Part shown: piece by piece, positions 17,801 to 54,081 of the stretch
Numbering within the stretch: the stretch's first letter is position 1
How the letters are laid out: every line of letters begins with the position of its first letter
Assembly: GCF_013626205.1 (NCBI RefSeq)
Contig: NZ_QHJE01000001.1
Coordinates: 806,001 to 870,000, forward strand
DNA: 64,000 bases
Direction: 5' to 3'
Source of the DNA: Hyphomicrobium methylovorum
GTDB lineage: Bacteria; Pseudomonadota; Alphaproteobacteria; Rhizobiales; Hyphomicrobiaceae
Made by a program: the position numbers and the translations under genes
Notes under the pieces: model-generated
What the model saw: only the letters and a program-made list of their open reading frames with translations
Told to the model about the DNA's origin: nothing
The model's database searches: none

Positions 17801-17801
17801 G

Positions 17802-18044: not shown

Positions 18045-18047
18045 CAC

Positions 18048-18389
18048 GTGCTTGAGTTGATCGGAAGCATCTTCGTTCTGCTCGGCGCGGGCGTTCATTT
18101 CTCGGCCGGCCTTGGCCTCATCCGCATGCCGGACGCGTTTACGCGACTACAAGCGGTCACCAAGGCGACGACACTTGGCAGCACGCTGATCGTCCTTGGC
18201 ATCGCTTTCTACCATCCTGGCTGGACCTGGAAGCTACTGATTATCGTCTACTTCATCTTCATGACGAACCCGATCTCCTCCCATGCCCTCGCGCGCGCGG
18301 CATTGGCACTCGGAGTGCCGATGTTTGGCGGCGGTGATGCGAAGAGCCTAGACAACGACGCACAAGCGATATCGGGGGGCGATCGGTGA
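18048..18389 (+). CDS. mrpG: Mrp antiporter subunit G
   Basis: The 113-residue protein read from a GTG with GAAGGA 7 bp upstream. Motifs LIGSIFVLLGAGVHFSAGLG, IRMPDAFTRLQAVTKATTLG and FMTNPISSHALARAA are diagnostic of MnhG/MrpG. It has three helices and a hydrophilic C-terminal tail. Its stop overlaps the start of the next gene (GTGA), so the two are translationally coupled. Confidence 0.9.
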   Translation: MLELIGSIFVLLGAGVHFSAGLGLIRMPDAFTRLQAVTKATTLGSTLIVLGIAFYHPGWTWKLLIIVYFIFMTNPISSHALARAALALGVPMFGGGDAKSLDNDAQAISGGDR

Positions 18390-19081
18390 GACACGCTTTT
18401 GTCGTGCTGGCCATTACCCTGCTTGGAGTTCTGTTCGCTGGCATTGACGCGAATGTCATCGTGCGGGACGTGGCGACTCCCCTCGGGCAAAGTCTTTTGA
18501 CACTCGTTCCGCGCGACCTCGGTGCGCCGAACGTCGTAACCGGCATTCTCCTTGCCTATCGAGGCTTCGATACAATCGGCGAAGTTGCCGTTCTTTTCAT
18601 GGTAGCTGCTGGCGTCGGCCTCGTTCTTGGCGAGAGCAACCAGCGGCGGCGCAAAGTCGACGCAACGCTGCCACCCGCCCAACCCGCCACGGAAATCGTA
18701 GAGAACGGCGCACGGATCCTACTTCCGATGATAGCGATATTTGCTGCCTACATCATCATGAACGGACACCTGTCAGCCGGCGGCGGATTTCAGGGCGGCG
18801 CCGTGATCGCGTCAGGGATTTTGCTGCTCTTGCTGGCATTGCCAAAAGTTGGCGTCGATCTCGCGTTTCTCAGCGCGACAGAGTCGATTGCGGGCATCCT
18901 GTTCGTTTTAGCCGGTGTAGCTGGATTGGTGTTTGCGAGCGGATTTTTCGACAGCCGAATCCTCCCGCTCGGAACCTTCGGCTCTCTCTTCAGCGCCGGA
19001 TCAATTCCGATTCTCTCTTTGTTGCTCGGGATAAAGGTCGGCTGCGAGCTGGGCGTGATTATTGTTCGGTTCCGTGGCTGA
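18386..19081 (+). CDS. mrpB: Fused MbhE-like (MrpA C-terminus) and MrpB subunit
   Basis: The 231-residue membrane protein has two parts. Residues 1-80 match the extreme C-terminal region of MrpA/MbhE (LLAYRGFDTIGEVAVLFMVA). Residues 105-231 are MrpB/MnhB (GARILLPMIAIFAAYIIMNG followed by HLSAGGGFQGGAVIASG). Fusion of these two modules fills the junction that MrpA and MrpB share in the classical order. The GTG start at 18386 overlaps the mrpG stop. Confidence 0.85.
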   Translation: MRHAFVVLAITLLGVLFAGIDANVIVRDVATPLGQSLLTLVPRDLGAPNVVTGILLAYRGFDTIGEVAVLFMVAAGVGLVLGESNQRRRKVDATLPPAQPATEIVENGARILLPMIAIFAAYIIMNGHLSAGGGFQGGAVIASGILLLLLALPKVGVDLAFLSATESIAGILFVLAGVAGLVFASGFFDSRILPLGTFGSLFSAGSIPILSLLLGIKVGCELGVIIVRFRG

Positions 19082-19103
19082 CGCGTGAAGTCAGGAGCGT
19101 TTC

Positions 19104-19475
19104 GTGTTCGATCTACCTATATCGAAGCTCGTGTTGGGGACTGGCTTCCTGCTGATCTTGATTGGTCTGTGGGGGATGCTGACACACCGAAACATTCTGC
19201 GGATCATTATCGGCTTCTCGCTCATTGATACCGGCATTCACGCCGTCATTGTGTCGCTGGGATATGTTGCGGGCGGCACCGCCCCCATTATCGATCGCGC
19301 CTTGCCGATACAGGAGGCTTCGACACGGGCTGTCGATCCCGTTGCGTCGGCGCTTGTGGTTACAGCGATCGTCATCGGTCTTTCGGTCACCGCTATGATG
19401 CTCGCGTATGCGGTGCGCCTTTACGATTCCAAGAAGACCCTTTCGATTGATGCGCTTGCGGATTCCAAATGGTAA
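19104..19475 (+). CDS. mrpC: Mrp antiporter subunit C (NuoK-like)
   Basis: The 123-residue, three-helix protein, read from GTG, is homologous to NuoK of complex I: LLILIGLWGMLTHRNILRII, GFSLIDTGIHAVIVSLGY, DPVASALVVTAIVIGLSVTA. MrpC helps form the ion channel beside MrpD. It is preceded by AGGAGCG and overlaps the next gene by 7 bp. Confidence 0.9.
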   Translation: MFDLPISKLVLGTGFLLILIGLWGMLTHRNILRIIIGFSLIDTGIHAVIVSLGYVAGGTAPIIDRALPIQEASTRAVDPVASALVVTAIVIGLSVTAMMLAYAVRLYDSKKTLSIDALADSKW

Positions 19476-22400
19476 CCGCGCTTCTGCACCCCCTGAATAT
19501 CTTTATTCTCGGTTTCGGAGGCGGCTTTCTCATTCCGCTGCTGAACCGCGTGAGCAAAGCGTGGGCTGGCTTCGCGCTGGTGTCAATTCTGATGGCAATG
19601 GCGTTGATTGTCATCGCGACGCTCATTTCGCTTTTGAGCGGATCGCCTGATGTCGAGATACTGACGGGCGGCAGCACGCCTCCCTACTCGATCAATCTTC
19701 GAATGGGCATTGCAGAATGTATTTTCTGCTTGGGCGTTCTCACGATCGCACTGCTCGGCACCGTTTACATCTTGCACGAAACGTATTCGGTTTTCCTGAT
19801 CTACCTCATCATCGTAACGGGCTTGCAAGGCCTGGTGATGACTCGGGATCTCTTCAACCTATTTGTGTTTATCGAGGTTGTTTCGATAGGCACGTACGGC
19901 CTCCTCGCGCTTGGAAGCCGCCCCGCTGCGCAGTCTGCAAGCTTCAAATATATCATGGCGACTGTGCTCGCCTCGGCGTTTCTTTTGCTCGGCATCGCTT
20001 TACTCTACGCCGCGACCGGGCTTCTCAATATCGACTTCTTAATTGCTCGCCGTAGCGAGATTGTCGGGCTGATTGCATTTGCTGGGCTCGCCTTCATTCT
20101 TGGCGCTTTGCTCGTTGAACTAAAGCCATTCCCCGCAAATGGTTGGGGTCTCGACGTTTACGAGACGGCGCCCGCGCCAATCGCCGCTTTTATTTCTGCT
20201 GCTGTCTCCGCTGGTGTTTTCTTCGCGCTCTATAAACTCCTGCCTCTGTTCGACACACACCTGCACCTCATTGCGTTTCTCGGCGTGGTCACGTTCGTTT
20301 TTTCGAACATCGTCGGGCTCAGGCAGGATAACGCGCAGCGCCTTCTTGGTTGCTCTTCAATCGCACAGATGGGTCTGCTCGTTGCGGCACTTGCTCTGCT
20401 GTACCCTACAGGCGGCGGTACCATGCCGCTCGTCGTGGTTGGCCTGTTCGTCAATCATCTGCTGGCTAAAGCCGGTCTTTTCTGGATTGCTGCCTATGTC
20501 GGCAAGCGATCGATCGATGACTTTGCAGTTCTCATGAAGCGGCCGTTGCTGCTCATTACGTTCTGCGTATTCTTTGCCGCCTTAGCGGGCCTTCCTCCAT
20601 TTCCAGGTTTTTGGGCCAAGTGGCACCTCGTGTTGACGCTCGCCGCCGCGGAAAATTATAGCTGGATTTTTGCTATCCTCGTTGGCTCGCTGCTTGAGGC
20701 TGCCTATCTGTTTCGCTGGTTCGGGCGCGTCGTTCACTTGAATTCGGATACTGCGGATCATCAAACGGATCACAATCCGTGGCTTCTCTTGCCGCCCGTT
20801 GCCGCGGCGCTTTTCCTACTGGTTTGTGGATTTTATGGAGCCGTGCTTGCGGGGCTTTCTCAGCACTGGCTTGTTGTGCCAATTTTGGGGGGCATCGGCG
20901 TCTATCTGATCGACGCACTTCCTGGCCGCACAAAGTCGGCGATCGTATCGCTCATCATATTGGCTATCGGCTTCTGGTCCGTTGGCGATCTTTCCGGGAT
21001 CAGCTTTTTGTTCGCCGCGCTGCTATCCGCTGGCGCCTTCGTTCTCTCGCTCGCCTGTCTTTATCGCTCCGACAGACGTCCCGGCTTTCATGCGCTGCTG
21101 ACGGTGATGTTGCTGTCTCTGTTGATGCTCCCTCGTTCGACGACGAGCCTCGAGTTCTTTTTTGTTTGGGAGTTGATTACGCTCTCATCGTATCTGCTGA
21201 TACTTCGTGGGCGCAATGCCGAACACGATGCGCAACGCTACCTTCTGTTTTCACTCGTCGCTGCGTTCTTCCTGCTCGCAGGATTTGCTATTGCGGCAGC
21301 TGTATCTGGAACCACCGACCTCACCGCGCTTCGCTCTGCGGGATCTGAAAGTGCGGCCTCCTTCCTGCTCTTTGCCGTTGGCTTTCTCATCAAGGCTGGC
21401 GCGATTGGCGTACACGTTTGGGTCGCCGGGGCGTACGCGGAAGCCGAGGACGACCTATCTGCGATGCTCTCCGCGCTGGTCAGCAAGGTGCCAGTATTCG
21501 GCTTGCTGATTGGGACGTATATCGCCATCCGCTCAGAAACGAACCTCAATATCGCCTATGCCGTCGGTGTGATCGGCATGCTCACCACATTGCTTGGGGC
21601 AATGCTGGCGCTCCGCGAAGATGACATGAAACGTATGCTCGCCTATTCGAGCATGAGCCAGCTCGGATACATCGTCACCGCGATCGCCCTGACCAGTCAC
21701 CTTGGCTGGGTGACAGCTTTTTATCTGACTGCGCATCATCTGATGGTGAAAGGCATCCTATTCCTTTCGGTTGCGGCCATCATTCTGCGAACCGGCGTTC
21801 GCCGCTTTTCGGATCTCGGCGGTCTTGCGCGCAGGATGCCGTTGACGTTTGCTCTTTCTGCCTTTGCAATTCTCGCGATGTCTGGATTGCCGCCGCTGAC
21901 AGGCTTCGGCGGAAAATGGCTGCTTCTGAGCTCCATGATGGGAAAGCAATGGTACGTGCTTGTTGTCGTGGGCGTGCTGTCGACGTTTGTCGGCTTTCTC
22001 TACATGTGGCACTTCCTTTCTGCTGTCTTCGTTGAGAAGCCTCGCCGCAACGTTGAACAAATAGACGAAGCGCCATGGGCGTTACTGGTGCCTCAAACGC
22101 TTTTGGCTTTGGGCATTATCGTGATGGCGTTCTATCCGAAATTGCTTCTCGAACCTTTATCTCAGGCAATCGATCCCTACTTCGCGTCGACGCTCATTTG
22201 GTATGGGATGTCGCTTGAGCTCATCTATGGCGCATGGAACCCTCTGCCGACGATGTTGTATGCGGTCGCTGGATCAGCGGGATTATTCGGCCTCATTCTA
22301 TTCATCAGACGTTTGCGACGGAGCAACGACGTCGGACGGTCTCCTGAGGCGCTTTCGCCATCGGGCAACGAGAGCGTCTACGATTATTGTACGTCCGCTT

Positions 22401-22591
22401 GCAGCACTCTGACTCCGCCATGCGCAGTTGGATTCTGGAACGCGGTTGCCGCCGGAACGATGGCATGCTCGGATTGGGTCCGGCGCATCTATAATGGCGA
22501 TGGGCAACTCTATAATCTGTACGTTCTCTATTATCTCATTCTGCTCTTCATCGCTTGCGGCGGCGCGCAAGAACTATGGCGTCCTCATTAG
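19469..22591 (+). CDS. Tandem fusion of two MrpD/NuoN-like proton-translocating subunits
   Basis: The 1040-residue polytopic protein contains two complete antiporter-like modules. Module 1 (about 1-480) has the TM5 glutamate in LFVFIEVVSIGTYG, lysines in VELKPFPANG and NHLLAKAGLFW, and the TM12 lysine in PGFWAKWHLV. Module 2 (about 500-1040) repeats them: FFFVWELITLSSY, FLIKAGAIGVHVW, LVSKVPVFG, HHLMVKGILF and GFGGKWLLL. It ends in the RIYNGDGQLYNLYVLY tail typical of NuoL/HyfB proteins. Both modules keep the charged residues needed for ion translocation. This single gene seems to replace separate MrpA and MrpD. No frameshift or stop is visible between modules, and the linker (about 475-520) is membrane-like. 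Confidence 0.85.
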   Translation: MVTALLHPLNIFILGFGGGFLIPLLNRVSKAWAGFALVSILMAMALIVIATLISLLSGSPDVEILTGGSTPPYSINLRMGIAECIFCLGVLTIALLGTVYILHETYSVFLIYLIIVTGLQGLVMTRDLFNLFVFIEVVSIGTYGLLALGSRPAAQSASFKYIMATVLASAFLLLGIALLYAATGLLNIDFLIARRSEIVGLIAFAGLAFILGALLVELKPFPANGWGLDVYETAPAPIAAFISAAVSAGVFFALYKLLPLFDTHLHLIAFLGVVTFVFSNIVGLRQDNAQRLLGCSSIAQMGLLVAALALLYPTGGGTMPLVVVGLFVNHLLAKAGLFWIAAYVGKRSIDDFAVLMKRPLLLITFCVFFAALAGLPPFPGFWAKWHLVLTLAAAENYSWIFAILVGSLLEAAYLFRWFGRVVHLNSDTADHQTDHNPWLLLPPVAAALFLLVCGFYGAVLAGLSQHWLVVPILGGIGVYLIDALPGRTKSAIVSLIILAIGFWSVGDLSGISFLFAALLSAGAFVLSLACLYRSDRRPGFHALLTVMLLSLLMLPRSTTSLEFFFVWELITLSSYLLILRGRNAEHDAQRYLLFSLVAAFFLLAGFAIAAAVSGTTDLTALRSAGSESAASFLLFAVGFLIKAGAIGVHVWVAGAYAEAEDDLSAMLSALVSKVPVFGLLIGTYIAIRSETNLNIAYAVGVIGMLTTLLGAMLALREDDMKRMLAYSSMSQLGYIVTAIALTSHLGWVTAFYLTAHHLMVKGILFLSVAAIILRTGVRRFSDLGGLARRMPLTFALSAFAILAMSGLPPLTGFGGKWLLLSSMMGKQWYVLVVVGVLSTFVGFLYMWHFLSAVFVEKPRRNVEQIDEAPWALLVPQTLLALGIIVMAFYPKLLLEPLSQAIDPYFASTLIWYGMSLELIYGAWNPLPTMLYAVAGSAGLFGLILFIRRLRRSNDVGRSPEALSPSGNESVYDYCTSACSTLTPPCAVGFWNAVAAGTMACSDWVRRIYNGDGQLYNLYVLYYLILLFIACGGAQELWRPH

Positions 22592-22865
22592 CCATCTTTT
22601 TTCATGGCGCCGCGCAATCCGCAGTCGCATCGACAATTATGTTCCGCTTACAGACTGTTTTTGCTATCGTGCTTTTGCGCTTCGTGAAACCTGTTCAAAT
22701 TATCCATTATCAGGCCTTTTAAACGATCAAACAATTAACCGTCTGATCGCCAATTCCTTGAGCACAGTTTCACTGCGCACCTAATGCCTTCTCCTTCTCG
22801 TCCAATTCACTCGCTGCGACCCTCACGAACCACGCTGATCTGATTGCGTATTGCAGGGGAATACA
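22592..22865. promoter_or_regulatory. Intergenic region, presumed arc operon promoter
   Basis: The stretch becomes AT-rich at 22690-22750, as expected for a promoter before arcD. I looked for FNR (TTGAT-N4-ATCAA) and ArgR-like boxes and found no convincing match. No gene is supported here. Confidence 0.35.
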
Positions 22866-24296
22866 ATGGCGTCGAACTCGGCACAGAAGCTGTCGCTGTA
22901 TGCGCTGACAGGCATGGTCGTTGGCTCCATGGTTGGCGCGGGCATCTTTTCCTTGCCGCGAACATTCGGCATTGCCACGGGCCCCTTTGGGGCCTTGATT
23001 GCCTGGAGCATCGCGGGCACCGGAATGTATTTGCTTGCTCGCGTCTTTCAGTTCCTCGCCGAGCGCAAACCCGATCTTGACGCCGGTGTGTATGCCTATG
23101 CCAAAGCTGGCTTCGGCGACTATCCCGGGTTCCTTTCGGCCTTTGGTTACTGGGTCGGAAGCTGCATCGGGAATGTGTCGTATTGGGTTCTAATCAAATC
23201 CACCTTGGGCGCGTTCTTTCCCGTCTTCGGCGACGGAAACACAGCTATAGCGATAGTTGTTGCCTCGCTTGGGATCTGGATTTTCCATTTCATGATCCTG
23301 CGGGGAATTCAGCAGGCGACTTTCATCAACACCGTCGTCACCATCGCCAAGATCATTCCGATTCTGGTCTTCATTCTCATCCTGTTCCTGGCGTTTAAAT
23401 TCGATCTGTTCCGTGCGAACTTCTGGGGCGGCACAAACATGCCGGAAACGAGCCTGTTCGAACAGGTTCGTGCGACCATGTTCGTGACTGTCTTTGTCTT
23501 TCTCGGGATCGAAGGCGCGAGCGTCTACTCGCGCTATGCCAAGCAGCGCTCGGACGTCGGAACCGCGACCATCTTGGGATTTGCCCTGGTCACGTGCTTG
23601 ATGGTTTTGGTCAGCATGCTGCCCTACGCGGTTCTGGAGCGTGCAGATATTGCTGGAATGCGCCAGCCGTCCATGGCCGCCGTTCTTGAGTCCGTGGTCG
23701 GACATTGGGGAGCTGTGTTTGTCAGTATCGGGCTACTCGTATCAGTCCTTGGCGCGTATCTCGCATGGTCCCTAATTTGCGCCGAAGTTCTTTTTACGGC
23801 TGCTCGCACCAACGATATGCCCCGGCTCTTTGCGAAAGAGAACGCCAACAAGGTACCTGCCGCTGCCCTGTGGCTGACCAACATCGTGGTGCAGCTCTTC
23901 GTTATCACCACCTATTGGTCGCAAGACGCCTTTGCATTGATGCTCAATCTCACAAGCGCGATGGCACTCATTCCGTATCTGCTCGTTGCCGGGTATGGCC
24001 TTCTCATGGCCCATCGAGGCGAAACCTATGAGGGCCAAGCGCAGAAGCGCACGCGCGATATGATTATCGCTGCGGTCGCCGTTCTCTACACGATCTTTCT
24101 GCTGTTCGCGGGCGGCACGAAGTTCCTTCTTCTTTCCGCGATTTTATACGGCCCGGGCACCGTTCTTTATATCTGGGCGCGGCGCGAGCAGAACAAGCAA
24201 GTCTTCAGCACAACGGACTGGATCCTTTTTCTCATCGCGGCGGTCGGCTGCATCGCGGGAGTATACGGTCTGTTGAACGGTTCCATCACCATCTGA
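22866..24296 (+). CDS. arcD: Arginine/ornithine-type antiporter, APC family
   Basis: The product is about 476 residues with twelve or so membrane helices and APC/ArcD motifs: [69 protein letters not shown]. ArcD exchanges arginine for ornithine, or in some members citrulline, to feed the arginine deiminase pathway. I chose the ATG at 22866 over the upstream TTG because AGGGGA lies 5 bp before it. It is first in an operon with arcA (16 bp gap) and nhaC. As arcB is absent from the window, arginine/citrulline exchange is a realistic alternative. Confidence 0.85.
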
Positions 24297-40277: not shown

Positions 40278-40396
40278 GACAGTCCTGACGTACAAATGGG
40301 CACGTCACCGCGAGCGAAGCCGTTTGAGCGCGCGGACGCGTTCATTCGCCAACGATCGAGGCACCCCGCCCGACGCGTTCTCGCGTGTGACCACGA

Positions 40397-40570
40397 CTGT
40401 CGGCAGGTCTCCTGGCTCGCGGGTCTTAGACTTCCGGACTACCTTCCCAGAAACTCTCGCTCCCAGTGGTAATATCGCCGACGTCTCGCCGCTTACAGTT
40501 GCGGGGGCAGCTGCGGCTTTTGGCGAGAGCCAGTACCGCATTCCCTATTGTTTCCCCGAAGGGAACCGAC
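40397..40570 (-). ncRNA. Cobalamin (B12) riboswitch
   Basis: Read on the minus strand, the core shows GGGAATGCGGTACTGGC, GCTGCCCCCGCAACTGTAAG followed by CGG, CCACTGG, GGGAAGG and GAGCCAGGAGACCTGCC, the complete canonical order of an AdoCbl riboswitch. It ends about 120 bases before the siderophore-type receptor start and would switch off that gene and the PepSY gene when cobalamin is plentiful. Confidence 0.93.
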
Positions 40571-40757
40571 GTGAACAGATTGGCCATATCAATAGGCCTG
40601 TCAATTGACGTCGGCCGATTGTTTGAGCGGTTGTGTCTCTAGCAACACCCCGCGCTTTGGGCTCCGTCGTGCCAATTGATTTGATCGCAAGGAACGAAGT
40701 GCAGAGTATGCGGCAAGCTCCTATGTTTCATGCATGTTGGCAGAGAGAGCAACGGCA

Positions 40758-45197: not shown

Positions 45198-47306
45198 TTA
45201 TCTGCCTTCGGCCCAGGCTTTGCTCTGGAGTTCCTCGAAGGTGAAGCGCATGCCAGCGTATGCGGCGACACCCGGCGTCGCGTAGCCGTACACTTCCTGA
45301 TAGTTCTCGTTGAGCAAGTTCTCGACGCGAACATACGATTCGACGCCAGGCATGAGCTTGTACGAGGCCGTCGCGTTGACGAGCCAGTAGGAGTCCAGGC
45401 TCACACGCACGGGCGTGTAGTCAGGCATATATGCGTTATCGATCGTTGTGCCGTTGTAGATGGCCGCCAGATTGAGATTTCCGCGCTTGTCGTTGAACGA
45501 ATAGTTGAGGTCTGCACGGCCGGCATTTCGCGGACGGCGAATTTCTGTAAGTCCGTTTGGTTCGTAAGCCAGCAGCCGCGTATAGCTCATACCGACGCTG
45601 AGATCCGGCGTTAGCATTGCACGGCCGGATATTTCCACGCCCTGCCGTTCGCTTTCGCCGTTGAGGTTGATTGGCGTATAGATCCCGCCGACCCGAATGC
45701 CGGTGATTTCATTCGTCAGATTGGCGTTGAAGTACGTCACGTCGAGGACTGCACGACCGTTCCACGTTGTGAACTCGACGCCAGCATCCCAGCCGAACGA
45801 CTCTTCCGGCAGCAGGTTCGGATTGCCCTGGAACTGGCCGAGAATACTACCAAACTGTTCGTACATTCCCGGCAATGTCACAGCCGTGCCGACGCTCGCG
45901 TGCGGGCGGGCGCCGATCTCGGGAAGCCGCAGAGACACGGCCGCGTGCCACGTCGTGTAGTCTGCGAAGCTATCGTTGTCGTCATGCCGGACGCTAACGG
46001 TAGGGAACAAACGGTCGAAATATTCGCCGCGATATTCGCCGACGTACGCCATGCGATCGCGTTTGCGTTCGAGGCCATCCGTATAAAGCGAAATCGGCGT
46101 GAAGGCTTCGTCCTCATACTGGGCCATGCCGGTCACGCTGTTGCGGAAGTCTCTGGCACCGAAGCGATACGTCGCGAGATAACCGAACTTGTTGGCTTCG
46201 CTTTCGTTTGTCGAGGGGCCGTAGTCACCACCGTCATGAGAGCTGGTCGTATTGCGCGTTGCGCGCAAGACCTGCGTGAATGCGCCGTCAAACGAGTCCC
46301 ACGTCAGATTGGCGCCGCTCAGCCAGATGCTCGTCTTGTTATGGAAATTGCCGTCAATCGCCATCAAGTATGGCTGGCCGGGCGCATAACCGAAATCGTC
46401 GTACTTAAGATTCTTATCGATGTGGTGGAGCGTGAAGTCGAGCGTCACACCCTTCAAGAGCTGCGCGCCGCCACGCACGTTCAGCGTGCTGATTCGCGTC
46501 GGGTCGTTCTCATGACCAACGGGCGAGATGTCGAAGCCGTCGACCTCGCGAGAACCGCCGCTGAGAGAGAACCAAACTTTGTCGTTGCCAGCCGAGACGC
46601 GTGCGAAGGCTTCCCGCGTTCCCATGCTGCCGCCTTCGGCGCGTGCTACGACCGTCAACGGGCCTTTGCCGTTCTTCGTGATGACGTTGATTACGCCGCC
46701 GATGGCCTTCGATCCGCCGATGCCGCTCTGGCCGCCGCGGATGATTTCGATGCGATCGATATCGTCAACGAGAAGGTTGGAAAAATCGAATTCGCCATTT
46801 GCCGTGTCGGACGCGTCGATGCCGTCGATCAAGACGAGTGTTTGATTTCCTTCGGCGCCACGGATGCGGACTTGCGTCAAGCTACCTGGACTGCCCGTGC
46901 GGCTGACTGAGACGCCGGGCTGGCTTCGCAGCGCGTCGGCGACGTAGCGTATTTCTTGCGCCTTCAACTGGGCCGCGGAAATGACGGTGACGGACGAGCC
47001 GATTTGGTCGGCCGGCACGCCGCTGATGGTTTCGGTTGCCGAAGCGCCCGCTCCTCCCTCGCCCCCGTCTACGGCGACGGGCGGGGCATCCGAATTGGAC
47101 GGCGGCACGCCGACGACAACGTCCTTTCCAGCCGCACGCCTCACGGCGATCTTCGGCTTTTCGACGGTTGCACCTTCGACGACGATCGGGGGCAATTCGG
47201 TGGTCGCCAAGTCGGTCGACTGGGCGTGTGCTTCAACGGCCGCGAAGCTGATCGACATACTCGCGAGTGCCGCACTGGCGGCGCAAATACTGGTTCGGCG
47301 CAACAT
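45198..47306 (-). CDS. btuB: TonB-dependent vitamin B12 receptor
   Basis: The 702-residue protein has a signal peptide ending EAHAQ, TonB box LPPIVVEG, and a spacer unusually long for BtuB (about 35-105). The plug follows (SSVTVISAAQLKAQEIRYVA, SPGSLTQVRIRGAEGNQTLV, DRIEIIRGGQSGIGGSKAIG) with a barrel ending in an aromatic-containing strand and a short tail. The QVRIRGAEGNQTLVLIDGI pattern is typical of BtuB. A cobalamin riboswitch lies about 240 bp upstream and cbiZ is convergent. It carries corrinoids across the outer membrane. Confidence 0.92.
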   Translation of the reverse strand: MLRRTSICAASAALASMSISFAAVEAHAQSTDLATTELPPIVVEGATVEKPKIAVRRAAGKDVVVGVPPSNSDAPPVAVDGGEGGAGASATETISGVPADQIGSSVTVISAAQLKAQEIRYVADALRSQPGVSVSRTGSPGSLTQVRIRGAEGNQTLVLIDGIDASDTANGEFDFSNLLVDDIDRIEIIRGGQSGIGGSKAIGGVINVITKNGKGPLTVVARAEGGSMGTREAFARVSAGNDKVWFSLSGGSREVDGFDISPVGHENDPTRISTLNVRGGAQLLKGVTLDFTLHHIDKNLKYDDFGYAPGQPYLMAIDGNFHNKTSIWLSGANLTWDSFDGAFTQVLRATRNTTSSHDGGDYGPSTNESEANKFGYLATYRFGARDFRNSVTGMAQYEDEAFTPISLYTDGLERKRDRMAYVGEYRGEYFDRLFPTVSVRHDDNDSFADYTTWHAAVSLRLPEIGARPHASVGTAVTLPGMYEQFGSILGQFQGNPNLLPEESFGWDAGVEFTTWNGRAVLDVTYFNANLTNEITGIRVGGIYTPINLNGESERQGVEISGRAMLTPDLSVGMSYTRLLAYEPNGLTEIRRPRNAGRADLNYSFNDKRGNLNLAAIYNGTTIDNAYMPDYTPVRVSLDSYWLVNATASYKLMPGVESYVRVENLLNENYQEVYGYATPGVAAYAGMRFTFEELQSKAWAEGR

Positions 47307-47546
47307 AAAGTCCCCCTCGGTGGATTCGACCGAAGAGGGAGCGCAGGGCAGGTGAACAGTCGCGATTAAGGGCGAACGGACTTACGGCGCGGCCGCTATG
47401 CCACGCGCGACTCAGGTTCCGTTAAAACAAAAATTCCCCACCACGCGACATTCATGACCTGACGTGACTCCCCTTCGGTTGACACATCAGCCGCCGCTAC
47501 GGGACTCCGTTCTGCCGCGCCCCACGCACGGAAGATGGGCAGCTTG

Positions 47547-47735
47547 TGGCGGCAGGTCTCCTGACTCGCGGCTCTGGCGCTTTCTCCCGCCTTCCCGGGC
47601 CTCTTCCGAGGCTTCAGTGGCATATCAGGAGTAAGCTTGCCGCTTACAGTTGCGGGGGCAGTCGCGGCATTGACACTGGCGTGTCGCACCGCATTCCCTC
47701 TTGTTGCAGCAAGCTTTTCACCTGTTGCAACACCG
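47547..47735 (-). ncRNA. Cobalamin (B12) riboswitch
   Basis: Minus-strand reading gives AGGGAATGCGGTGCGACAC, CTGCCCCCGCAACTGTAAGC followed by GG, CCACTG, GGGAAGGCGGG and GAGTCAGGAGACCTGCC, the canonical AdoCbl riboswitch order. It controls btuB, ending about 240 bases before the start codon. Confidence 0.92.
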
Positions 47736-47897
47736 TCACGCGGCCATTCAAAGTTACCGCCTCGGGTAAGTCAATTGGCCTTCGAGGCTGAGCATATATC
47801 GGCCGTCGGGCTAGATGCGGATTTGTCACTATGCTGAGAAGGCTCGGACTTCCGTCCGGGTGGAGCGATGCGGGGGATCGCCGTAGCTTCCTTGTAA

Positions 47898-47920
47898 AAC
47901 ATCGATAGGGATTATATGTT
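47898..47920. promoter_or_regulatory. Weak NsrR-like 23-bp palindrome
   Basis: AACAT (47898-47902) and ATGTT (47916-47920) frame the same 23-bp spacing as the better palindrome at 48486. It lies 33 bp before nsrR, so nsrR autoregulation is possible. Confidence 0.4.
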
Positions 47921-47953
47921 TGTGCTATCTCGACTCACCTCAAGGCGACCCGG

Positions 47954-48415
47954 ATGCGATTGACACTTCATGCCGACTATTCCTTGCGCGTTCTTATGCA
48001 CGCAGGGTTGAAGGGGGCTGAACTGTCGACCATCAGCGAGATCGCAGAGCGGTTCGACATTTCCCGGAGCCATCTGATGAAGGTGGTGCATCACCTGGGG
48101 CAGCTTGGGTATCTCGAGACGGTGCAAGGTAAAAAGGGCGGCTTCCGGCTGCTCCGCCGCCCGCAGCAAATCAACGTCGGCACCGTCATACGCGATACCG
48201 AGCAGGAACTGGACGTTATCGGTTGCATGAACCAACCGGGCTATTGCCGCATCCAACCGGCCTGCATCCTTCGCCGCGCCCTGCATGATGCAACGAATGC
48301 ATTTCTGGCCTCTCTCGATCAGTACACGCTTGAAGACCTGATTCGGCCGAAACGTGCGCTTGCAAGACTTCTCGACCTCGATCCAGACCCGCCGTCCTCA
48401 ACCCCGCCGAATTGA
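47954..48415 (+). CDS. nsrR: Nitric-oxide-sensing repressor NsrR (Rrf2 family)
   Basis: The 153-residue protein MRLTLHADYSLRVLMHAGLK carries the characteristic HTH and wing (AERFDISRSHLMKVVHHLGQ, LGYLETVQGKKGGFRLLRRP). The NsrR cysteine triad is in GCMNQPGYCRIQPACILRRA (C-X6-C-X5-C), which holds the NO-sensitive Fe-S cluster. NsrR represses NO-response genes and is inactivated when NO nitrosylates the cluster. It sits immediately upstream of the nirK operon, as in Nitrosomonas europaea. Palindromes resembling NsrR sites flank it. Confidence 0.92.
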   Translation: MRLTLHADYSLRVLMHAGLKGAELSTISEIAERFDISRSHLMKVVHHLGQLGYLETVQGKKGGFRLLRRPQQINVGTVIRDTEQELDVIGCMNQPGYCRIQPACILRRALHDATNAFLASLDQYTLEDLIRPKRALARLLDLDPDPPSSTPPN

Positions 48416-48485
48416 AAGCGACCTGCGAGGTCTGAAACGGTCGACTTCTCCGCCATCCGACGCGGTGCGGCAGACTGCTCACCAT

Positions 48486-48508
48486 AACATGCAAATGATT
48501 TACATGTT
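48486..48508. promoter_or_regulatory. NsrR-type operator before the nirK operon
   Basis: A 23-bp near-perfect palindrome: left arm AACATGCAAAT (48486-48496), centre G, right arm ATTTACATGTT (48498-48508), 10 of 11 pairs matching. Spacing and the ATGYA/TRCAT cores resemble the proteobacterial NsrR consensus. It lies 50 bp before the TPR gene, consistent with NO-induced derepression of the downstream genes. Confidence 0.7.
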
Positions 48509-48558
48509 TGAATGAGTGGCGTATAAACGGCGTCCAAAACGAGATTGGTTGGACGCCC

Positions 48559-49191
48559 ATGAAAGCTCGACTGTCGGTTCGGCAACTTGTTATCGGGATG
48601 ATGTCTATCGGCATCGGCGCAGCTGCGAGCGTTGTGCTGATACCGGCAATCACGCACCCGGCTCCGCTCACGGTTTACCAGCTCACCGGTCCGCTCAACA
48701 GCGGCGCAACAACGCTTCCCACCGCAATCAAAGGCATTCCAGCGCTTCCGTCTCTGCTGGTTGAAAAGAATGCACGCACGCAATGGGAGATCATCGGTGG
48801 CACTCTGCTGCAGACCGGATTTGCCAACGCGAGCATTTCAGCACTCGAACGCGCGATCGCCAACGATCCAGAAAATATCATGCTTCACGTCGCGTTGGGC
48901 GAAGCTATCGTTATCGCGAACGGCGGCTGGGTCAACGCACGCGCGAAGGCCGAGTTCGACATTGCTCTGCGCGCCGATCCCAACGACTTGATCGCGCGCT
49001 TCTACCTCGCTCACTGGCTGATGCAATCGGGAAAGCCCAAACCTGCGCTGGTGAAGTGGGTTGGACTGATGCGGACCGTTGGGACCGATGAAGTCTGGTA
49101 CGATAAGCTTTGGGAGGCCATGCCCGGAGCTGCCGAGCAACTCGGCATCAGCAAACTCGCGCTGCAAGCGCTTTGCTCCGCCGGCATGTAA
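48559..49191 (+). CDS. TPR protein resembling the CcmI/NrfG C-terminal region
   Basis: The product is about 210 residues with one N-terminal membrane anchor (LVIGMMSIGIGAAASVVLIP) and a periplasmic TPR region (ALERAIANDPENIMLHVALG, AKAEFDIALRADPNDLIARF, YLAHWLMQSGKPKPALVKWV) like the C-terminus of cytochrome c maturation proteins CcmI/CycH/NrfG. It follows the NsrR operator and precedes the multicopper oxidase and cytochromes, so it may help mature the two c-type cytochromes made by the operon. That role is inferred; a general assembly factor is the alternative. Confidence 0.7.
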   Translation: MKARLSVRQLVIGMMSIGIGAAASVVLIPAITHPAPLTVYQLTGPLNSGATTLPTAIKGIPALPSLLVEKNARTQWEIIGGTLLQTGFANASISALERAIANDPENIMLHVALGEAIVIANGGWVNARAKAEFDIALRADPNDLIARFYLAHWLMQSGKPKPALVKWVGLMRTVGTDEVWYDKLWEAMPGAAEQLGISKLALQALCSAGM

Positions 49192-49241
49192 TCCCGCACT
49201 CAGAAGGCATCTCCCATGAACAAACTGCCGCAGCGTTCTAT

Positions 49242-49264
49242 AACATTCATTTTAGATATTGTTT
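49242..49264. promoter_or_regulatory. AT-rich NsrR-like half-site before the multicopper oxidase
   Basis: AACATTCATTTTAGATATTG sits in an AT-rich pocket and shares AACATTCATTTTA with a better inverted repeat at 49434-49454 (ACATTCAT and ATGAATGT around 5 bp). The left arm matches 9 of 11 positions of an NsrR half-site. It could be a second promoter-operator inside the operon, or chance. Confidence 0.35.
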
Positions 49265-49293
49265 TTATACAGATGAAGTGCAAAGGTCGGGAT

Positions 49294-50490
49294 ATGGCGT
49301 GGACAGACAAATCGGGGGATCCGATGGTTTTCGAGAATGAGCTTCAACCGTTCCTTATTGGAGCCCAAGAGTCGTCCAAGCAGCGATCTACTCGCGACGC
49401 CGCACAATCGAAGTCCACTTTTTTTGCGCTTAAACATTCATTTTATATGAATGTCATGGAATTTTGGGCGTTGATGCTGGCGACAATGGTCACGCTTCTG
49501 CTGCTCTGGCCCAACCCTGCGAAGGCCGATACGCATCAATTCAGTCTCTCGATCGAAGACACAATCGTTACGCTCGTTGATAAGCAGACGTTCCACACGT
49601 TTTCCTTCAACGGCCAGACGCCCGGCCCGCTCATTCATGTCGTCGAAGGCGATGAAATCGAAGTCGAGGTCGAGAACAACACGACCCTGCCGCACACGAT
49701 TCATTGGCATGGCCTCTACCAGCGCGGAACCTGGAAGAACGACGGCGTTCCGGACACGACGCAAGCGGCGATCGCACCAGGTGAGACCTTCACGTATCGC
49801 TTCGTCGCCGCGCCATCTGGAACGATGTGGTATCACTGTCATGTCAACGTGAATGAGCACGTCGCGATGCGCGGCATGTGGGGTCCGCTGATCATCGACC
49901 CGAAAGAACCTCTGCCGGTCGAGAAGGAAGTCACCAAAGACTACATCATGATGTTCTCCAGCTGGGTTTCCAACTGGGCGAGCAAGCCGGGCCAAGGCGG
50001 CATTCCGGGTGATGAGCCGGACTACTTCACGGTCAACGGAAAATCATTTCCCGATACTCAGCCGCTTCGCATCACGAAAGGCGACGTCGTTCGCATTCGC
50101 CTGATCGGCGCAGGTGATGAGCTGCATTCGATCCACATTCACGGTCACACCTTCGACGTGATTGCGAAAGACGGGCGGCCGCTCGTCAACCCATACCCAG
50201 CCGACACGATCTTGCTTGGCCCCGGCGAGCGCTACGACCTCATCTTACGTGCGGACAATCCCGGCCTTTGGATGGTGCACGATCACATCGACCGCCACAC
50301 CGTAAACGGCAAATCGCCGATGGGCGGCATCATGACGGTGATCGAATACACCGAGATCCCTCTCGCAGAACAGTCTTTCTACAAATGGAAAGACAAGAAG
50401 TTCGCGCCCGACTTCTTCTACGAGGAGTCGCTCAAGAAGCCGCACGGAATGCACGAAAACGAAGGCTTCCAAGGCATTCCCGCTCCCTGA
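49294..50490 (+). CDS. ncgA: Two-domain (type C) multicopper oxidase, NcgA-like
   Basis: The product has a hydrophobic leader (VMEFWALMLATMVTLLLLWP...AKAD) and two cupredoxin domains. Domain 1 has HTIHWHG and WYHCHVNVNEHVAMRGM, which contains the complete type 1 copper set. Domain 2 has HSIHIHGHTF and WMVHDHIDRHT, where the type 1 Cys is replaced by Asp. Type 1 copper only in domain 1 defines type C two-domain oxidases such as the N. europaea NirK-cluster protein. The order here (this, diheme cytochrome, monoheme cytochrome, nirK, with nsrR upstream) is that of ncgABC-nirK. The start is uncertain: 49216 (AGAAGG), 49294 (AAAGG) or 49447, where the leader begins. The role may be nitrite or NO tolerance or electron transfer to NirK. 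Confidence 0.85.
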   Translation: MAWTDKSGDPMVFENELQPFLIGAQESSKQRSTRDAAQSKSTFFALKHSFYMNVMEFWALMLATMVTLLLLWPNPAKADTHQFSLSIEDTIVTLVDKQTFHTFSFNGQTPGPLIHVVEGDEIEVEVENNTTLPHTIHWHGLYQRGTWKNDGVPDTTQAAIAPGETFTYRFVAAPSGTMWYHCHVNVNEHVAMRGMWGPLIIDPKEPLPVEKEVTKDYIMMFSSWVSNWASKPGQGGIPGDEPDYFTVNGKSFPDTQPLRITKGDVVRIRLIGAGDELHSIHIHGHTFDVIAKDGRPLVNPYPADTILLGPGERYDLILRADNPGLWMVHDHIDRHTVNGKSPMGGIMTVIEYTEIPLAEQSFYKWKDKKFAPDFFYEESLKKPHGMHENEGFQGIPAP

Positions 50491-50510
50491 CGATTTGAAG
50501 GAGAATTCAC

Positions 50511-51179
50511 ATGAAACGACACCTTGTCGGCTTGGCGGGATTCATGATCGCGCTCGCCAGCCCGGCCTCTGCTGACGGTCTCGATCCAAGTTGCGCGGGT
50601 TGTCACGCATTGACGAAGCCCGCGGACACTTCTCTCGATCGGCTATGGACGCGCAAGGGTCCGGACCTTTGGTATGCGGGCAGCAAGTTCAACGCTGAGT
50701 GGCTCGTTGAGTGGCTGCAGGATCCAAAGCCTATCCGGCCTGTAGGCTATCCCTATTTCAAGACGATCACCAAAGGCGCCGAGCACGACGTTGCAGACCC
50801 GACAAAATCGCCTCCACATCCCAAGCTCGACAAAGCAGCTGCTGAAGCGGCAACCGCCGAATTGATGAAGCTGAAGGCTCCCGACCTCATCGCGGAAGGA
50901 ACCTTCAAAGGAGACAAAGGCGGCGCGCGGATGGGCTCTCTCGCGTTCAACAAGTTGCGCGGCTGCATTGCGTGTCACCAAGGAGAAGACGGCAAGGGCG
51001 GTGCGTCAGGACCATCGCTCACGGATGGCGGCGCGCGACTGCAGGCCGATTTCATCGCGGCCTACACGACAGATCCGCAGCGAATTGATCCGCACATCTG
51101 GATGCCGATCCTGAAACTCAAGGACAAGGATATCCAGCGTCTCACCGCATACGTCATCAGCCTGGGAGGCAAGCCATGA
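50511..51179 (+). CDS. ncgB: Diheme cytochrome c, NcgB-like
   Basis: The 222-residue protein has a signal peptide (GLAGFMIALASPASA) and two heme c sites, CAGCHALTKP near residue 28 and CIACHQGEDG near residue 152, each a full CXXCH. Distal Met ligands are likely in the C-terminal domain (WMPILKL). It probably carries electrons in the periplasm between the respiratory chain, the oxidase and NirK. GAAGGAG precedes the ATG; the stop overlaps the next gene by 4 bp. Confidence 0.88.
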   Translation: MKRHLVGLAGFMIALASPASADGLDPSCAGCHALTKPADTSLDRLWTRKGPDLWYAGSKFNAEWLVEWLQDPKPIRPVGYPYFKTITKGAEHDVADPTKSPPHPKLDKAAAEAATAELMKLKAPDLIAEGTFKGDKGGARMGSLAFNKLRGCIACHQGEDGKGGASGPSLTDGGARLQADFIAAYTTDPQRIDPHIWMPILKLKDKDIQRLTAYVISLGGKP

Positions 51180-51532
51180 TCGCGCGAACACTCGTCGGTT
51201 TGCTGGGGCTCACGCTGTTGATTTCACCAGCTCGTGCAGAAGATCCGTCGCCTGTCGAAAGACTTTACAACACCTACTGCGTTCAATGCCACGGCCTGAA
51301 TCGCAATGGCTCCGGCATCAATCTTCCCGGTCTTTCGACAAAACCGCGCGACCATACCGACACCAAAGGCATGGGCGGAACACCGGATGATGAACTCTTC
51401 AAAGCGATCAAGGAAGGCGGCCTCGCGGTCAACAAGTCGGTGCTGATGCCGGCGTGGGCCGGCGTTCTCTCGGACGAGGAAATCACCGAGTTGGTCAAAT
51501 ACCTCCGAACTGTTTGCAAGTGCGGCAACTGA
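51176..51532 (+). CDS. ncgC: Monoheme cytochrome c, NcgC-like
   Basis: The 118-residue class I cytochrome c has a signal peptide (LVGLLGLTLLISPARAE), heme site CVQCHGLNRNG, and a probable axial Met in SVLMPAWAGVLSDEEITELV. It ends with two extra cysteines (TVCKCGN). It is translationally coupled to ncgB. As the last cytochrome before nirK it is the likeliest electron donor to the nitrite reductase, by position and homology. Confidence 0.88.
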   Translation: MIARTLVGLLGLTLLISPARAEDPSPVERLYNTYCVQCHGLNRNGSGINLPGLSTKPRDHTDTKGMGGTPDDELFKAIKEGGLAVNKSVLMPAWAGVLSDEEITELVKYLRTVCKCGN

Positions 51533-51575
51533 AGCGGCGCAACGCCAAATGACGATTGTAAAAGGGAGAAAGACG

Positions 51576-52523
51576 ATGAATAGAAAATCTCGGCAACGCG
51601 CCTTCACTGTTGGAGGACTTGCCGCGTTGATGCTGGCCAGCGCCCCACTCAGCGCGGCGCTGGCGGCGACAATCAAGCTCCAGGTGACGGCCAAGGAAAT
51701 ACAAGTTCCGATCGACAATGAAGGCAAAACGGAGCTCGCTTGGACATTTGATGGTCATGTTCCGGGTCCGCTGTTCAGGGCGACGGAAGGTGACACGATT
51801 GAATTCACGCTCAAGAACGACGCTGCGAACCAGAAATCGCATTCGATCGATCTGCACGCGGCGCGCGTTGACGTTCTAGGTCCGTTTGGACCAGTCAAGC
51901 CGGGTGAAACCAAGACCTTCACATTCACCGCGGATAATCCCGGCATCTACTTCTATCACTGCGGCGCGGATCCAATGATCCAGCATATTGCGCGCGGAAT
52001 GTTTGGCGCCATCATCATCGATCCAAAAGATCCCAATGCTCTCCCGAAAGCAGACCGTGAGTACGTTCTGATCGAGCATCAGATGTTCGAAAATCCCGAA
52101 GACGTCAAAGCGATGATGGCCAACAACTGGAAGCACAACGCGTACAACGGCATTCCCTTCAAGTATGACCCGGTGCATGACACCAACGCCACCAAGACGC
52201 TTGAAGCGTTGCCGGGTGAGCGCGTGCGCATCTACTACGTAAACGCGGGCCCGAACGAGTTCGCCGGATTTCATCCGATCGCCGGGATATGGGATAAGGT
52301 CTATCCCTCAGGCAATCCCAAGAACGTGCTGACTGCGGTGCAGAACTATACGATTGCACCCGGCGATGCGGCGACGTTCGACCTCATTTCGCCGGTCGAA
52401 GGCGCTAACGCGCTCGTCAATCATTCGATGCGTCTTGCGCTTTCCGGCGCTATCGCAATCGTCATGTTCAGCAAAGATGCCGATCCCGAAATGGGCCGAG
52501 GCGACAAAATCCTGGTGCGTTGA
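51576..52523 (+). CDS. nirK: Copper-containing nitrite reductase
   Basis: The 315-residue product has a signal peptide (LAALMLASAPLSAALAA) and two cupredoxin domains with every NirK copper ligand: type 1 at His89, Cys129, His137, Met142, and type 2 at His94, His128 (FYHCG) and His283 (LVNHS). Catalytic Asp92 (SIDLH) and His233 (GFHPIAG) are also present. It reduces nitrite to nitric oxide in the periplasm. Its length and the IDLHAARVDVLGPFGPV sequence resemble the short NirK of Nitrosomonas rather than class I alphaproteobacterial enzymes. The ATG at 51576 has AAAGGGAG upstream. It is last in the operon, followed by a strong terminator. Confidence 0.92.
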   Translation: MNRKSRQRAFTVGGLAALMLASAPLSAALAATIKLQVTAKEIQVPIDNEGKTELAWTFDGHVPGPLFRATEGDTIEFTLKNDAANQKSHSIDLHAARVDVLGPFGPVKPGETKTFTFTADNPGIYFYHCGADPMIQHIARGMFGAIIIDPKDPNALPKADREYVLIEHQMFENPEDVKAMMANNWKHNAYNGIPFKYDPVHDTNATKTLEALPGERVRIYYVNAGPNEFAGFHPIAGIWDKVYPSGNPKNVLTAVQNYTIAPGDAATFDLISPVEGANALVNHSMRLALSGAIAIVMFSKDADPEMGRGDKILVR

Positions 52524-52534
52524 CTCTCGACTGC

Positions 52535-52563
52535 ATGGGCCTGCTTCGGCAGGCCCATTTTTT
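52535..52563 (+). terminator. Rho-independent terminator of the nirK operon
   Basis: ATGGGCCTGC (52535-52544), loop TTCG, GCAGGCCCAT (52549-52558), then a run of T to 52563. It is a textbook intrinsic terminator between nirK and the convergent ilvA. Confidence 0.93.
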
Positions 52564-52569
52564 CTATCG

Positions 52570-54081
52570 CTAACGCAGGAAGAGCCGATAGGCGTCGTTT
52601 GCTGTTTCATCCTCGTAGGGGTAGCCGAGGGAATCCATTCGCGCATTGAACCGCGCGCGATCCTCCGGCTTCACCTGAACGCCAACGAGTACGCGGCCGT
52701 AGTCTGCGCCGTGGTTGCGATAGTGGAACAGCGTGATGTTCCAGTCGGATCCGATGCCATCAAGAAAGCGCAGCAAGGCGCCTGGCCGCTCGGGAAACTC
52801 GCAACGCAGGATGACTTCGTCGTCCAAGGACGGTGCACGACCGCCGACCATGTAGCGCACATGCAGAGTTGCGGTCTCGTCGGCGCTGATGTCGACGACG
52901 CCGTAGCCCAGATCTTCAAGTTCCTTGATGATCTCGGCCTTGCGGTTCTTTGCGTCGCGCGTCTGAAGGCCAACGAATACATGCGCTTTGCCGTTCTTGG
53001 CGTAGCGATAGTTGAACTCGGTCACAGTGCGGTTGCCAAGAACCTGCACGAAGCGGCGATAGCTGCCGGGTTCTTCTGGAATCGTAACAGCCAAAAGAAT
53101 TTCGCGACTTTCGCCGACCTCGGCACGCTCCGCGACGTGACGCAGACGATCGAAGTTCAGATTGGCGCCGCTACAAATCGCAACGAGCGCGCCGGTGCGT
53201 TCCGGGTTTGCTTCCGCATAGGCCTTGAGGCCGGCAAGGGACAACGCGCCCGCCGGTTCGGCAAGAATGCGCATATCTTCGAAAATATCTTTGATCGCGC
53301 CGCACATCGCGTCGGTGTCGGCAACGAGTACGCCGTCGAGCAGGTCTCGGCAGATGCGGAACGTTTCTTCACCTGCCTGACGGACGGCAACGCCATCGGC
53401 GAAGAGACCGACGCGGTCGAGAACGACGCGGCTACCGTTATCGATTGCAGCCTTCATGCAGGCAGCGTCCGCCGGTTCGACGCCGACGACGCGGATCTCG
53501 GGGCGAAGAAACTTCACATACGATGCGATACCCGCTGCAAGACCGCCGCCGCCAATCGGAACGAAGATCGCTTCGATGGGACCAGGATGGCGATTGAGAA
53601 TTTCGACGGCGATTGTTCCCTGCCCCGCGATCACGTCGCCATCGTCGTAAGGGTGGACGAACGTCAATCCGCGTTCGGCGGCAAGTTTGATAGCCGCGAT
53701 GTAAGCCTCGTCGAACGTGTCACCAACCAGCACGACGTTTCCGCCCCAGTAGCGTACGGCGTCGACTTTGATCTGTGGTGTCGTGACCGGCATCACGATG
53801 GTCGCTTCGATGCCAAGCTTTTTGGCCGACAGCGCGACGCCCTGCGCATGATTGCCGGCAGACGCGCAGATCACGCCAGCCGACCGCGCGTCTGCCGGGA
53901 GTCGCGCGATCCGGTTGTATGCGCCGCGAATCTTGAAGGAAAAGACCGGCTGCAGGTCTTCCCGCTTCAGCAAAACATCCGCGCCGAGCCGCTGGCTCAG
54001 CCGAACCATCGGCTCAAGCGGCGTTTCGACAGCGACGTCATAGACGTGCGCGTCAAGAATCCTTCGTACGTATTCGGTCAC
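52570..54081 (-). CDS. ilvA: Threonine ammonia-lyase (biosynthetic)
   Basis: The 503-residue enzyme has a catalytic PLP domain (1-320): PLP lysine in FSFKIRGAYN, ASAGNHAQGVALSAK, phosphate loop IGGGGLAAG, and CSGANLNFDRL. Two C-terminal ACT-like regulatory modules follow (320-410 ILLAVTIPEEPGSYRRFVQV and 415-503 CEFPERPGALLRFL). It deaminates threonine to 2-oxobutanoate for isoleucine synthesis; the regulatory tail implies isoleucine feedback control. A long open frame on the opposite strand across this gene (52354-54159) is only its mirror. Confidence 0.95.
   Translation of the reverse strand: MTEYVRRILDAHVYDVAVETPLEPMVRLSQRLGADVLLKREDLQPVFSFKIRGAYNRIARLPADARSAGVICASAGNHAQGVALSAKKLGIEATIVMPVTTPQIKVDAVRYWGGNVVLVGDTFDEAYIAAIKLAAERGLTFVHPYDDGDVIAGQGTIAVEILNRHPGPIEAIFVPIGGGGLAAGIASYVKFLRPEIRVVGVEPADAACMKAAIDNGSRVVLDRVGLFADGVAVRQAGEETFRICRDLLDGVLVADTDAMCGAIKDIFEDMRILAEPAGALSLAGLKAYAEANPERTGALVAICSGANLNFDRLRHVAERAEVGESREILLAVTIPEEPGSYRRFVQVLGNRTVTEFNYRYAKNGKAHVFVGLQTRDAKNRKAEIIKELEDLGYGVVDISADETATLHVRYMVGGRAPSLDDEVILRCEFPERPGALLRFLDGIGSDWNITLFHYRNHGADYGRVLVGVQVKPEDRARFNARMDSLGYPYEDETANDAYRLFLR

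Follow-up and report, generated by a model that had tools for sequence, protein, structure and literature searches.

The ncg locus of Hyphomicrobium methylovorum

We examined a 64,000-nucleotide stretch of the Hyphomicrobium methylovorum genome, here called the window (positions 806001-870000 of its contig, within a 3.45-Mb genome). It carries a cluster of six genes: nsrR, a gene for a tetratricopeptide repeat (TPR) protein, genes for a multicopper oxidase, a diheme and a monoheme cytochrome c, and nirK. All six were verified in the order given by an earlier note on this DNA (Table 1). The last four correspond to the ncgABC-nirK cluster of Nitrosomonas europaea. The new element is the TPR gene, which appears from the genome comparisons below to be a fixed, co-regulated and cluster-linked part of the Hyphomicrobiales form of this module.

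Several open reading frames (ORFs) are open upstream of the start that we prefer. An operator-like palindrome covers 48486-48508, which makes ATG 48559 the most likely start of the TPR protein. The oxidase is assigned to ATG 49447 or 49456 and not to the ORF opening at 49216, because of the palindrome at 49433-49455 and by comparison with relatives. NirK probably starts at 51576, preceded by GGGAGA, instead of at 51549. The terminator that the earlier note placed after nirK is the longest among seven terminator-like sites in 47700-52800 (shuffle mean 5.6), an interval with no sigma-70-like promoter (shuffle mean 2.0).

Table 1. Features of the ncg cluster, in window coordinates, and of the leaders of related loci, in locus coordinates
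Feature	Position	Strand	Basis or remark
Palindrome N, operator-like, AACAT-N13-ATGTT, upstream of nsrR (candidate for autoregulation)	47898-47920		exact match, 6/11 arm symmetry
nsrR, Rrf2-family repressor, three Cys	47954-48415	+	top NCBIfam match NsrR, 125.6 bits
Palindrome A, operator-like, upstream of TPR gene	48486-48508		exact, 10/11 arm symmetry, kept in relatives
TPR protein, N-terminal hydrophobic anchor, CcmI-TPR-like	48559-49191	+	ORF open from TTG 48508
Box B, half-symmetric, operator-like, TPR-oxidase leader	49242-49264		by eye; counterpart of a box conserved in relatives' leaders
Palindrome C, operator-like, at oxidase start	49433-49455		one mismatch, 9/11 arm symmetry
ncgA-like two-domain multicopper oxidase, type 1 copper site in domain 1 (type C)	49447-50490	+	ORF open from 49216
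ncgB-like diheme cytochrome c	50511-51179	+	heme motifs, orthology
ncgC-like monoheme cytochrome c	51176-51532	+	heme motif, orthology
nirK, N. europaea-type copper nitrite reductase	51549-52523	+	likely start 51576
Intrinsic terminator	52535-52558	+	10-bp stem, TTCG loop, T tail
Short leader ORF of seven relatives	L061:5729, L062:2267, L063:5714, L064:5717, L065:5729, L066:5728, L067:5673

Copper enzymes and cytochromes

The four enzyme and cytochrome genes are adjacent, in the N. europaea order, and each is orthologous to its counterpart by identity, tree and PDB matches; identities to the N. europaea locus L084 are 62% (oxidase), 53% (diheme), 57% (monoheme) and 63% (NirK). The identification with ncgABC-nirK made in the earlier note thus stands. 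In the alignment with N. europaea NirK all copper ligands are intact, again as claimed: the segments HSIDLH, YHC, HIARGM, FHPIAG and NHSM supply the type 1 (T1) and type 2 copper ligands and the catalytic Asp and His. The best PDB match of NirK is 4kns, whose chain is 100% identical to the NirK of the N. europaea ATCC 25978 locus. The protein scores 170.4 bits against NCBIfam TIGR02376, short of the 296.3-bit cut-off, and is assigned as NirK by its orthology to the N. europaea enzyme.

The oxidase has two cupredoxin domains with the copper motifs HWH, HCH (with the T1 Cys), HIH and HDH, and T1 ligands in domain 1 only, the layout called type C. HDH in domain 2 and a single HCH occur in all 53 oxidase rows of our alignment; stricter motif patterns missed one or two motifs in 8 of these rows, the window's not among them. 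Its best PDB match is 3g5w, presumably the N. europaea blue copper oxidase. The heme motifs are CAGCH and CIACH in the diheme and CVQCH in the monoheme cytochrome. An unusual heme motif was considered as a possible reason for the TPR gene but was not seen, CXXCH occurring throughout among the rows listed. The C-terminal CxC of the monoheme cytochrome was rejected as a mark of TPR-bearing clusters, since Nitrosomonas and Thiobacillus rows without the TPR gene have it too.

NsrR and its candidate operators

The three Cys of the window NsrR align with the cluster-ligating positions of the Rrf2 family. NsrR is the best of eight NCBIfam families for this protein, though below that family's 182-bit cut-off; the score for RirA is 106 bits (cut-off 193). 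A 23-bp palindrome, AACAT-N13-ATGTT with 11-1-11 symmetry, precedes nsrR, the TPR gene and the oxidase gene. N. europaea likewise has an Rrf2-type NsrR and an 11-1-11 palindrome upstream of the oxidase gene; there the arms are AAGAT/ATCTT, whereas those of the window are AACAT/ATGTT. The window further differs in having nsrR on the strand of the cluster, and in the extra TPR gene with its own palindrome. Such palindromes ahead of the presumed target genes, and their conservation, bear out the NsrR-type control proposed in the earlier note, as far as a sequence comparison can.

With one mismatch allowed the window holds four palindrome matches, three of them within the cluster. Exact matches in the whole genome number three, two in the cluster; the third lies inside a coding frame that looks helicase-like by eye, and is taken as chance. 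Ten other TPR-bearing genomes have 29 exact palindromes, 16 in the cluster, for a total over 11 genomes of 18 of 32; the reversed pattern, used as a control, has four sites in these 11 genomes (G434, a duplicate of G004, is left out of this count). The TPR box and the oxidase box, at up to one mismatch, are both present in 11/11 clusters of a first scan. Around the oxidase start of TPR-less loci we found AAGAT-starting palindromes of at least 9/11 pairs in 10 of 26 loci scanned, including all six of Nitrosomonas type; 0.33 palindromes of at least 9/11 pairs are expected per 500 bases.

Some counts tell against regulation through these sites. Among 100 shuffles of the window the mean was 1.19 matches and four reached the observed number of four; the bare number is therefore not rare, and the case rests on the positions of the palindromes. 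Afipia (G432) has four exact palindromes, none in its cluster. Two clusters added later lack the pair, G650 having the TPR box only and G585 a match only elsewhere, and at four TPR-bearing loci there is no nsrR next to the cluster.

Two side observations concern these control regions. NsrR may have a second target in G433, where an exact palindrome (L190:3811-3833) marks the start of a 132-residue ORF and a 485-residue membrane-protein ORF comes next; we take the two ORFs to be DUF2249-like and NnrS-like, respectively. Between box B and palindrome C, seven leaders of Nitrobacter/Bradyrhizobium type have a small ORF, 17-20 codons long, whose product ends in PDG or SDG and could be a leader peptide. 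This ORF matches neither the window leader nor the leader ORFs of Afipia type, where a GC-rich inverted repeat (by eye) comes after a different short ORF.

Distribution and phylogeny of the cluster

A profile search with the NirK alignment over genome contigs yielded 53 loci, and 50 of these retain the order oxidase, diheme cytochrome, monoheme cytochrome, nirK; orthology at this scale excludes chance as the origin of the gene order. Contig ends cut L060 and the oxidase of L108. Two Nitrospira loci (L110 and L111, NirK identities 44% and 43%) have none of the other cluster genes. An Rrf2 gene matching nsrR is near 36 of the 53 loci, several kb off in some. Hosts of the four-gene cluster include Nitrobacter, Afipia, Bradyrhizobium, Thiobacillus, Duganella, Cupriavidus and an Acidobacteriaceae genome. 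This range of hosts does not support the view of the earlier note that the arrangement is defined by Nitrosomonas. Its occurrence outside ammonia oxidizers, which the note emphasized, is true here but not new, since Nitrobacter (PMC5080386) and zetaproteobacterial (PMC3603346) cases are in print.

A close published parallel is Nitrobacter winogradskyi, a nitrite oxidizer with the same six genes in the same order (L066) and a NirK 71% identical to that of the window. The Nitrobacter Rrf2 protein is farther from the window NsrR than is that of N. europaea (112 vs. 164 bits). In Table 1 of Mellbye et al. (2016; PMC5080386), ncgABC comprises Nwi2653-Nwi2649, at 2.7 to 19.9 fold, while nirK is Nwi2648. 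The six tags correspond in order to the six L066 genes, and Nwi2653-2649 fits an Rrf2 protein, the TPR protein, the oxidase and two cytochromes. From the tag order we infer that the Nitrobacter TPR gene is Nwi2652, induced with the rest.

A joint tree was built from all four proteins of ncgABC-nirK, by quick search with a midpoint root, on 1000 columns and 53 rows that do not include L108. One branch, with a Shimodaira-Hasegawa-like approximate likelihood ratio (SH-aLRT) support of 100, separates the 13 TPR-bearing clusters from all other rows, and two TPR-less Rhodobiaceae clusters join them next (99). The six Nitrosomonas-type rows are apart from this clade, among beta- and gammaproteobacterial and acidobacterial rows, in a group with Thiobacillus and others (93). 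A NirK-only tree has 31 rows, including eight other proteins of relatives that are NirK-like by sequence, one of them on a very long branch; the window NirK stays among the ncg-type rows, apart from those eight. The TPR-bearing alphaproteobacterial clusters being a clade of their own, a recent gift from Nitrosomonas is unsupported, and both trees disfavor that genus as transfer source, contrary to the sharing suggested in the earlier note. Plasmid carriage was also considered and rejected: NirK has no plasmid match at E 1e-50, and the sole plasmid match of the TPR protein is an annotated ccmI. The cluster of L087, from a metagenome-assembled genome (MAG) named Rhizobium, falls inside the Thiobacillus rows and is probably on a mis-binned contig.

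Linkage of the TPR gene to the cluster

All 13 alphaproteobacterial clusters of the clade contain the TPR gene, and no genome sampled from the genus, the class or Nitrobacter's family yielded it without this NirK. Neither of the results that the earlier note named as refuting was thus obtained: in the tree with the eight other NirK-like proteins the window NirK does not group with them, and the TPR gene is linked to the cluster in relatives. Among 248 genomes of that family the TPR profile (E <=1e-30) and the NirK profile (E <=1e-60) match the same nine, with both genes on the same strand 2.4-2.6 kb apart; being probably close relatives for the most part, the nine do not count as independent events. 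Among 385 genomes of the class, NirK was found only in the window's own; the TPR profile matches 177, with a single strong match, again the window's own (349 bits, the others at most 76). In the genus sample (22 genomes, the window's own included) only a Hyphomicrobium MAG, G004, shares both. We found no description of a TPR gene in the parts of the ncgABC-nirK literature consulted, which did not extend to supplements.

Nature of the TPR protein

By eye the TPR protein has one N-terminal hydrophobic anchor, the remainder being TPR domain. Its AlphaFold2 model has a mean predicted local distance difference test score (pLDDT) of 78, with block means of 83-95 for residues 61-200 and values under 50 for residues 1-33. 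The sequence points toward the cytochrome c maturation protein CcmI: PF23914 (CcmH/CycH TPR) is the best Pfam family of the window protein and matches 10/10 TPR members, and at all 29 loci of the best class-wide TPR matches examined outside its own genome there is a frame that also matches the window genome's CcmI. That genome has a separate full-length ccmI, a 438-residue frame above the TIGR03142 cut-off that adjoins a CcmE-like frame (by eye). The claim that a CcmI-like TPR gene is tied to the cluster is thus upheld. Our best guess, by analogy with these relatives, is that the protein is a dedicated cytochrome c assembly factor.

Two known TPR chaperones invite comparison. With CcmI/CycH the protein shares TPR domain sequence and, we assume, a periplasmic location; it differs in its single anchor (CcmI has two helices plus a loop; PMC3884852), in having no C-terminal alpha-beta domain (PMC3884852), and in being encoded beside its presumed clients while scoring under the family cut-offs. 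NrfG, the dedicated heme-lyase TPR protein of NrfA, resembles it in being a TPR domain encoded beside a nitrite-handling cytochrome system, whereas among our six genes there is no NrfE/NrfF-like gene and no CXXCK heme motif. CcmI and NrfG are described as binding apocytochromes in their C-terminal part (PMC3884852). In a profile search of solved structures NrfG is the top natural protein (E 0.004, tied with YrrB and behind a designed TPR protein), and it ranks first for the TPR model in Foldseek; no solved CcmI is among the structure matches listed by Foldseek and VIA-align.

A number of results speak against the assembly-factor role. The window protein scores 30 bits against PF23914, under the 42-bit cut-off; TIGR03142 (CcmI) matches none of 10 members at E 0.1; NF007692 (NrfG) matches one member at 12.6 bits, with a cut-off of 306; and the TPR profile misses the CcmI of its own genome at E 0.001. 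With CcmI kinship and every curated cut-off missed, we call the protein CcmI-like and not a CcmI. In VIA-align NrfG is ninth, tied with many TPR proteins, a generic fold match; since TPR folds tie, structure was rejected as a discriminator of role. Clusters without the TPR gene carry the same cytochromes, among the rows listed, and with standard CXXCH motifs no special need for the protein is therefore visible. The TPR gene of G004 (L005:1501-2175) has one in-frame TAG, in which error and decay are indistinguishable.

Proposed function and alternatives

We regard it as probable, with some reserve, that the cluster is an NsrR-controlled ncgABC-nirK module for aerobic detoxification of nitric oxide (NO) or nitrite, with the TPR protein as its putative apocytochrome chaperone. 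NO would destroy the NsrR cluster and free the operators ahead of nsrR, the TPR gene and the oxidase gene. The TPR protein, anchored in the inner membrane, would keep the two induced cytochromes, still in their apo-form, ready for heme ligation by the general Ccm complex. Together, NirK, the cytochromes and the multicopper oxidase, of an O2-reducing type, would make up a short electron chain in the periplasm by which NO, nitrite or both are removed. The module may thereby serve aerobic detoxification, possibly by oxidizing NO back to nitrite, instead of denitrification; the NO-oxidase form is our hypothesis. A cited suggestion is that N. europaea NirK may oxidize NO to nitrite (PMC10999283), NcgABC has been described as a putative scavenger of NO made by NirK (PMC10781756), and NirK-dependent nitrite tolerance is reported for the N. 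europaea cluster (PMC5080386; PMC10781756). The role of ncgABC in N. europaea, according to one source, "has not been fully elucidated" (PMC6967387).

An ordinary denitrification nirK for anaerobic nitrite respiration would also have intact ligands, and the genus has denitrifiers (H. nitrativorans NL23). We think this distinctly improbable, given the position of the window NirK apart from the relatives' eight other NirK-like proteins, the presence of an O2-reducing type of oxidase in the module, and the reductase complement of the genome. Its five PF00384 proteins are NuoG, a formate dehydrogenase, a YdeP-type protein and two that are dimethyl sulfoxide reductase-like below their cut-offs, and none is over cut-off for Nar, Nap or Nas. 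PF00115 finds CtaD and CyoB over cut-off and one sub-threshold frame with no NCBIfam match; no NorB-like heme-copper protein was found by this route, in contrast to the norCBQD of N. europaea (PMC4940428), although the search had no NorB positive control and did not extend to NosZ, Hmp or assimilatory nitrite reductase, which tempers the argument. With no nitrate or NO reductase found, aerobic detoxification is favored over denitrification. Recent acquisition from an ammonia oxidizer has in its favor the patchiness of ncg-type NirK in the genus, with 2 of 22 genomes, counting the window's own, plus one remnant, and the fact that no window ORF of at least 120 residues outside the cluster matched the flanks examined of G004 and G018. 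We give it hardly any credence: the 13 TPR-bearing clusters are a single clade near Rhodobiaceae and far from Nitrosomonas, the GC content of the cluster is ordinary for the window, and loss explains the patchiness as well. The congener G018 (L188:8478-9239) keeps an nsrR, 78% identical over 143 residues and flanked by two exact palindromes, and after these a nirK stump, a 44-residue frame that retains the final 34 residues of NirK (62% identity). The 18 kb examined contain no cluster gene for the TPR protein, the oxidase or a cytochrome, and this locus is probably the deletion scar of a lost cluster.

It is more conceivable, though still unlikely, that the TPR protein serves the oxidase and NirK as a scaffold or in copper delivery. 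Its Cys206 and Met210 (window numbering), a C-terminal Cys-x3-Met that could carry Cu(I), are invariant in 10 aligned members and present in four more; the oxidase and NirK, two of the four cluster enzymes, contain copper, and the TPR fold is generic. Against this, the nearest sequence relatives are CcmI-like by both measures given above, and no metal-chaperone family of Pfam or NCBIfam matches the TPR members at E 0.1. Beyond the assembly-factor role that we prefer, we tentatively offer a fuller conjecture. The protein may represent a new family, an NO-induced, substrate-specific cytochrome c maturation factor branched from the CcmI TPR domain. It would have entered the module a single time, in the ancestor of the Hyphomicrobiales clusters, and shared the later inheritance, moves and losses of the module; it would let an aerobe build a periplasmic NO-oxidizing chain while NO damages the general machinery.

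A dedicated CcmI-like gene, if truly such, would extend the idea of a client-specific maturation factor, known from NrfG, to cytochromes with ordinary heme motifs. A fixed and co-regulated helper, in an aerobe with no detected nitrate or NO reductase, offers a cleaner system in which to ask whether the module oxidizes NO. An N. europaea-type nirK in environmental data should be taken as a marker for neither an ammonia oxidizer nor a denitrifier.

Other features of the window

The cluster lies between a TonB-receptor-like gene and a threonine-deaminase-like gene. The TonB-receptor-like ORF (45198-47306, - strand) precedes it, with a cobalamin riboswitch upstream of this ORF at 47534-47752 (112.8 bits); a second is at 40385-40585 (117.8 bits), and both are on the - strand. 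In 16001-24000 the window has a strong negative AT skew, reaching -0.35 at 20001-22000, over a long ORF (19451-22588, + strand).

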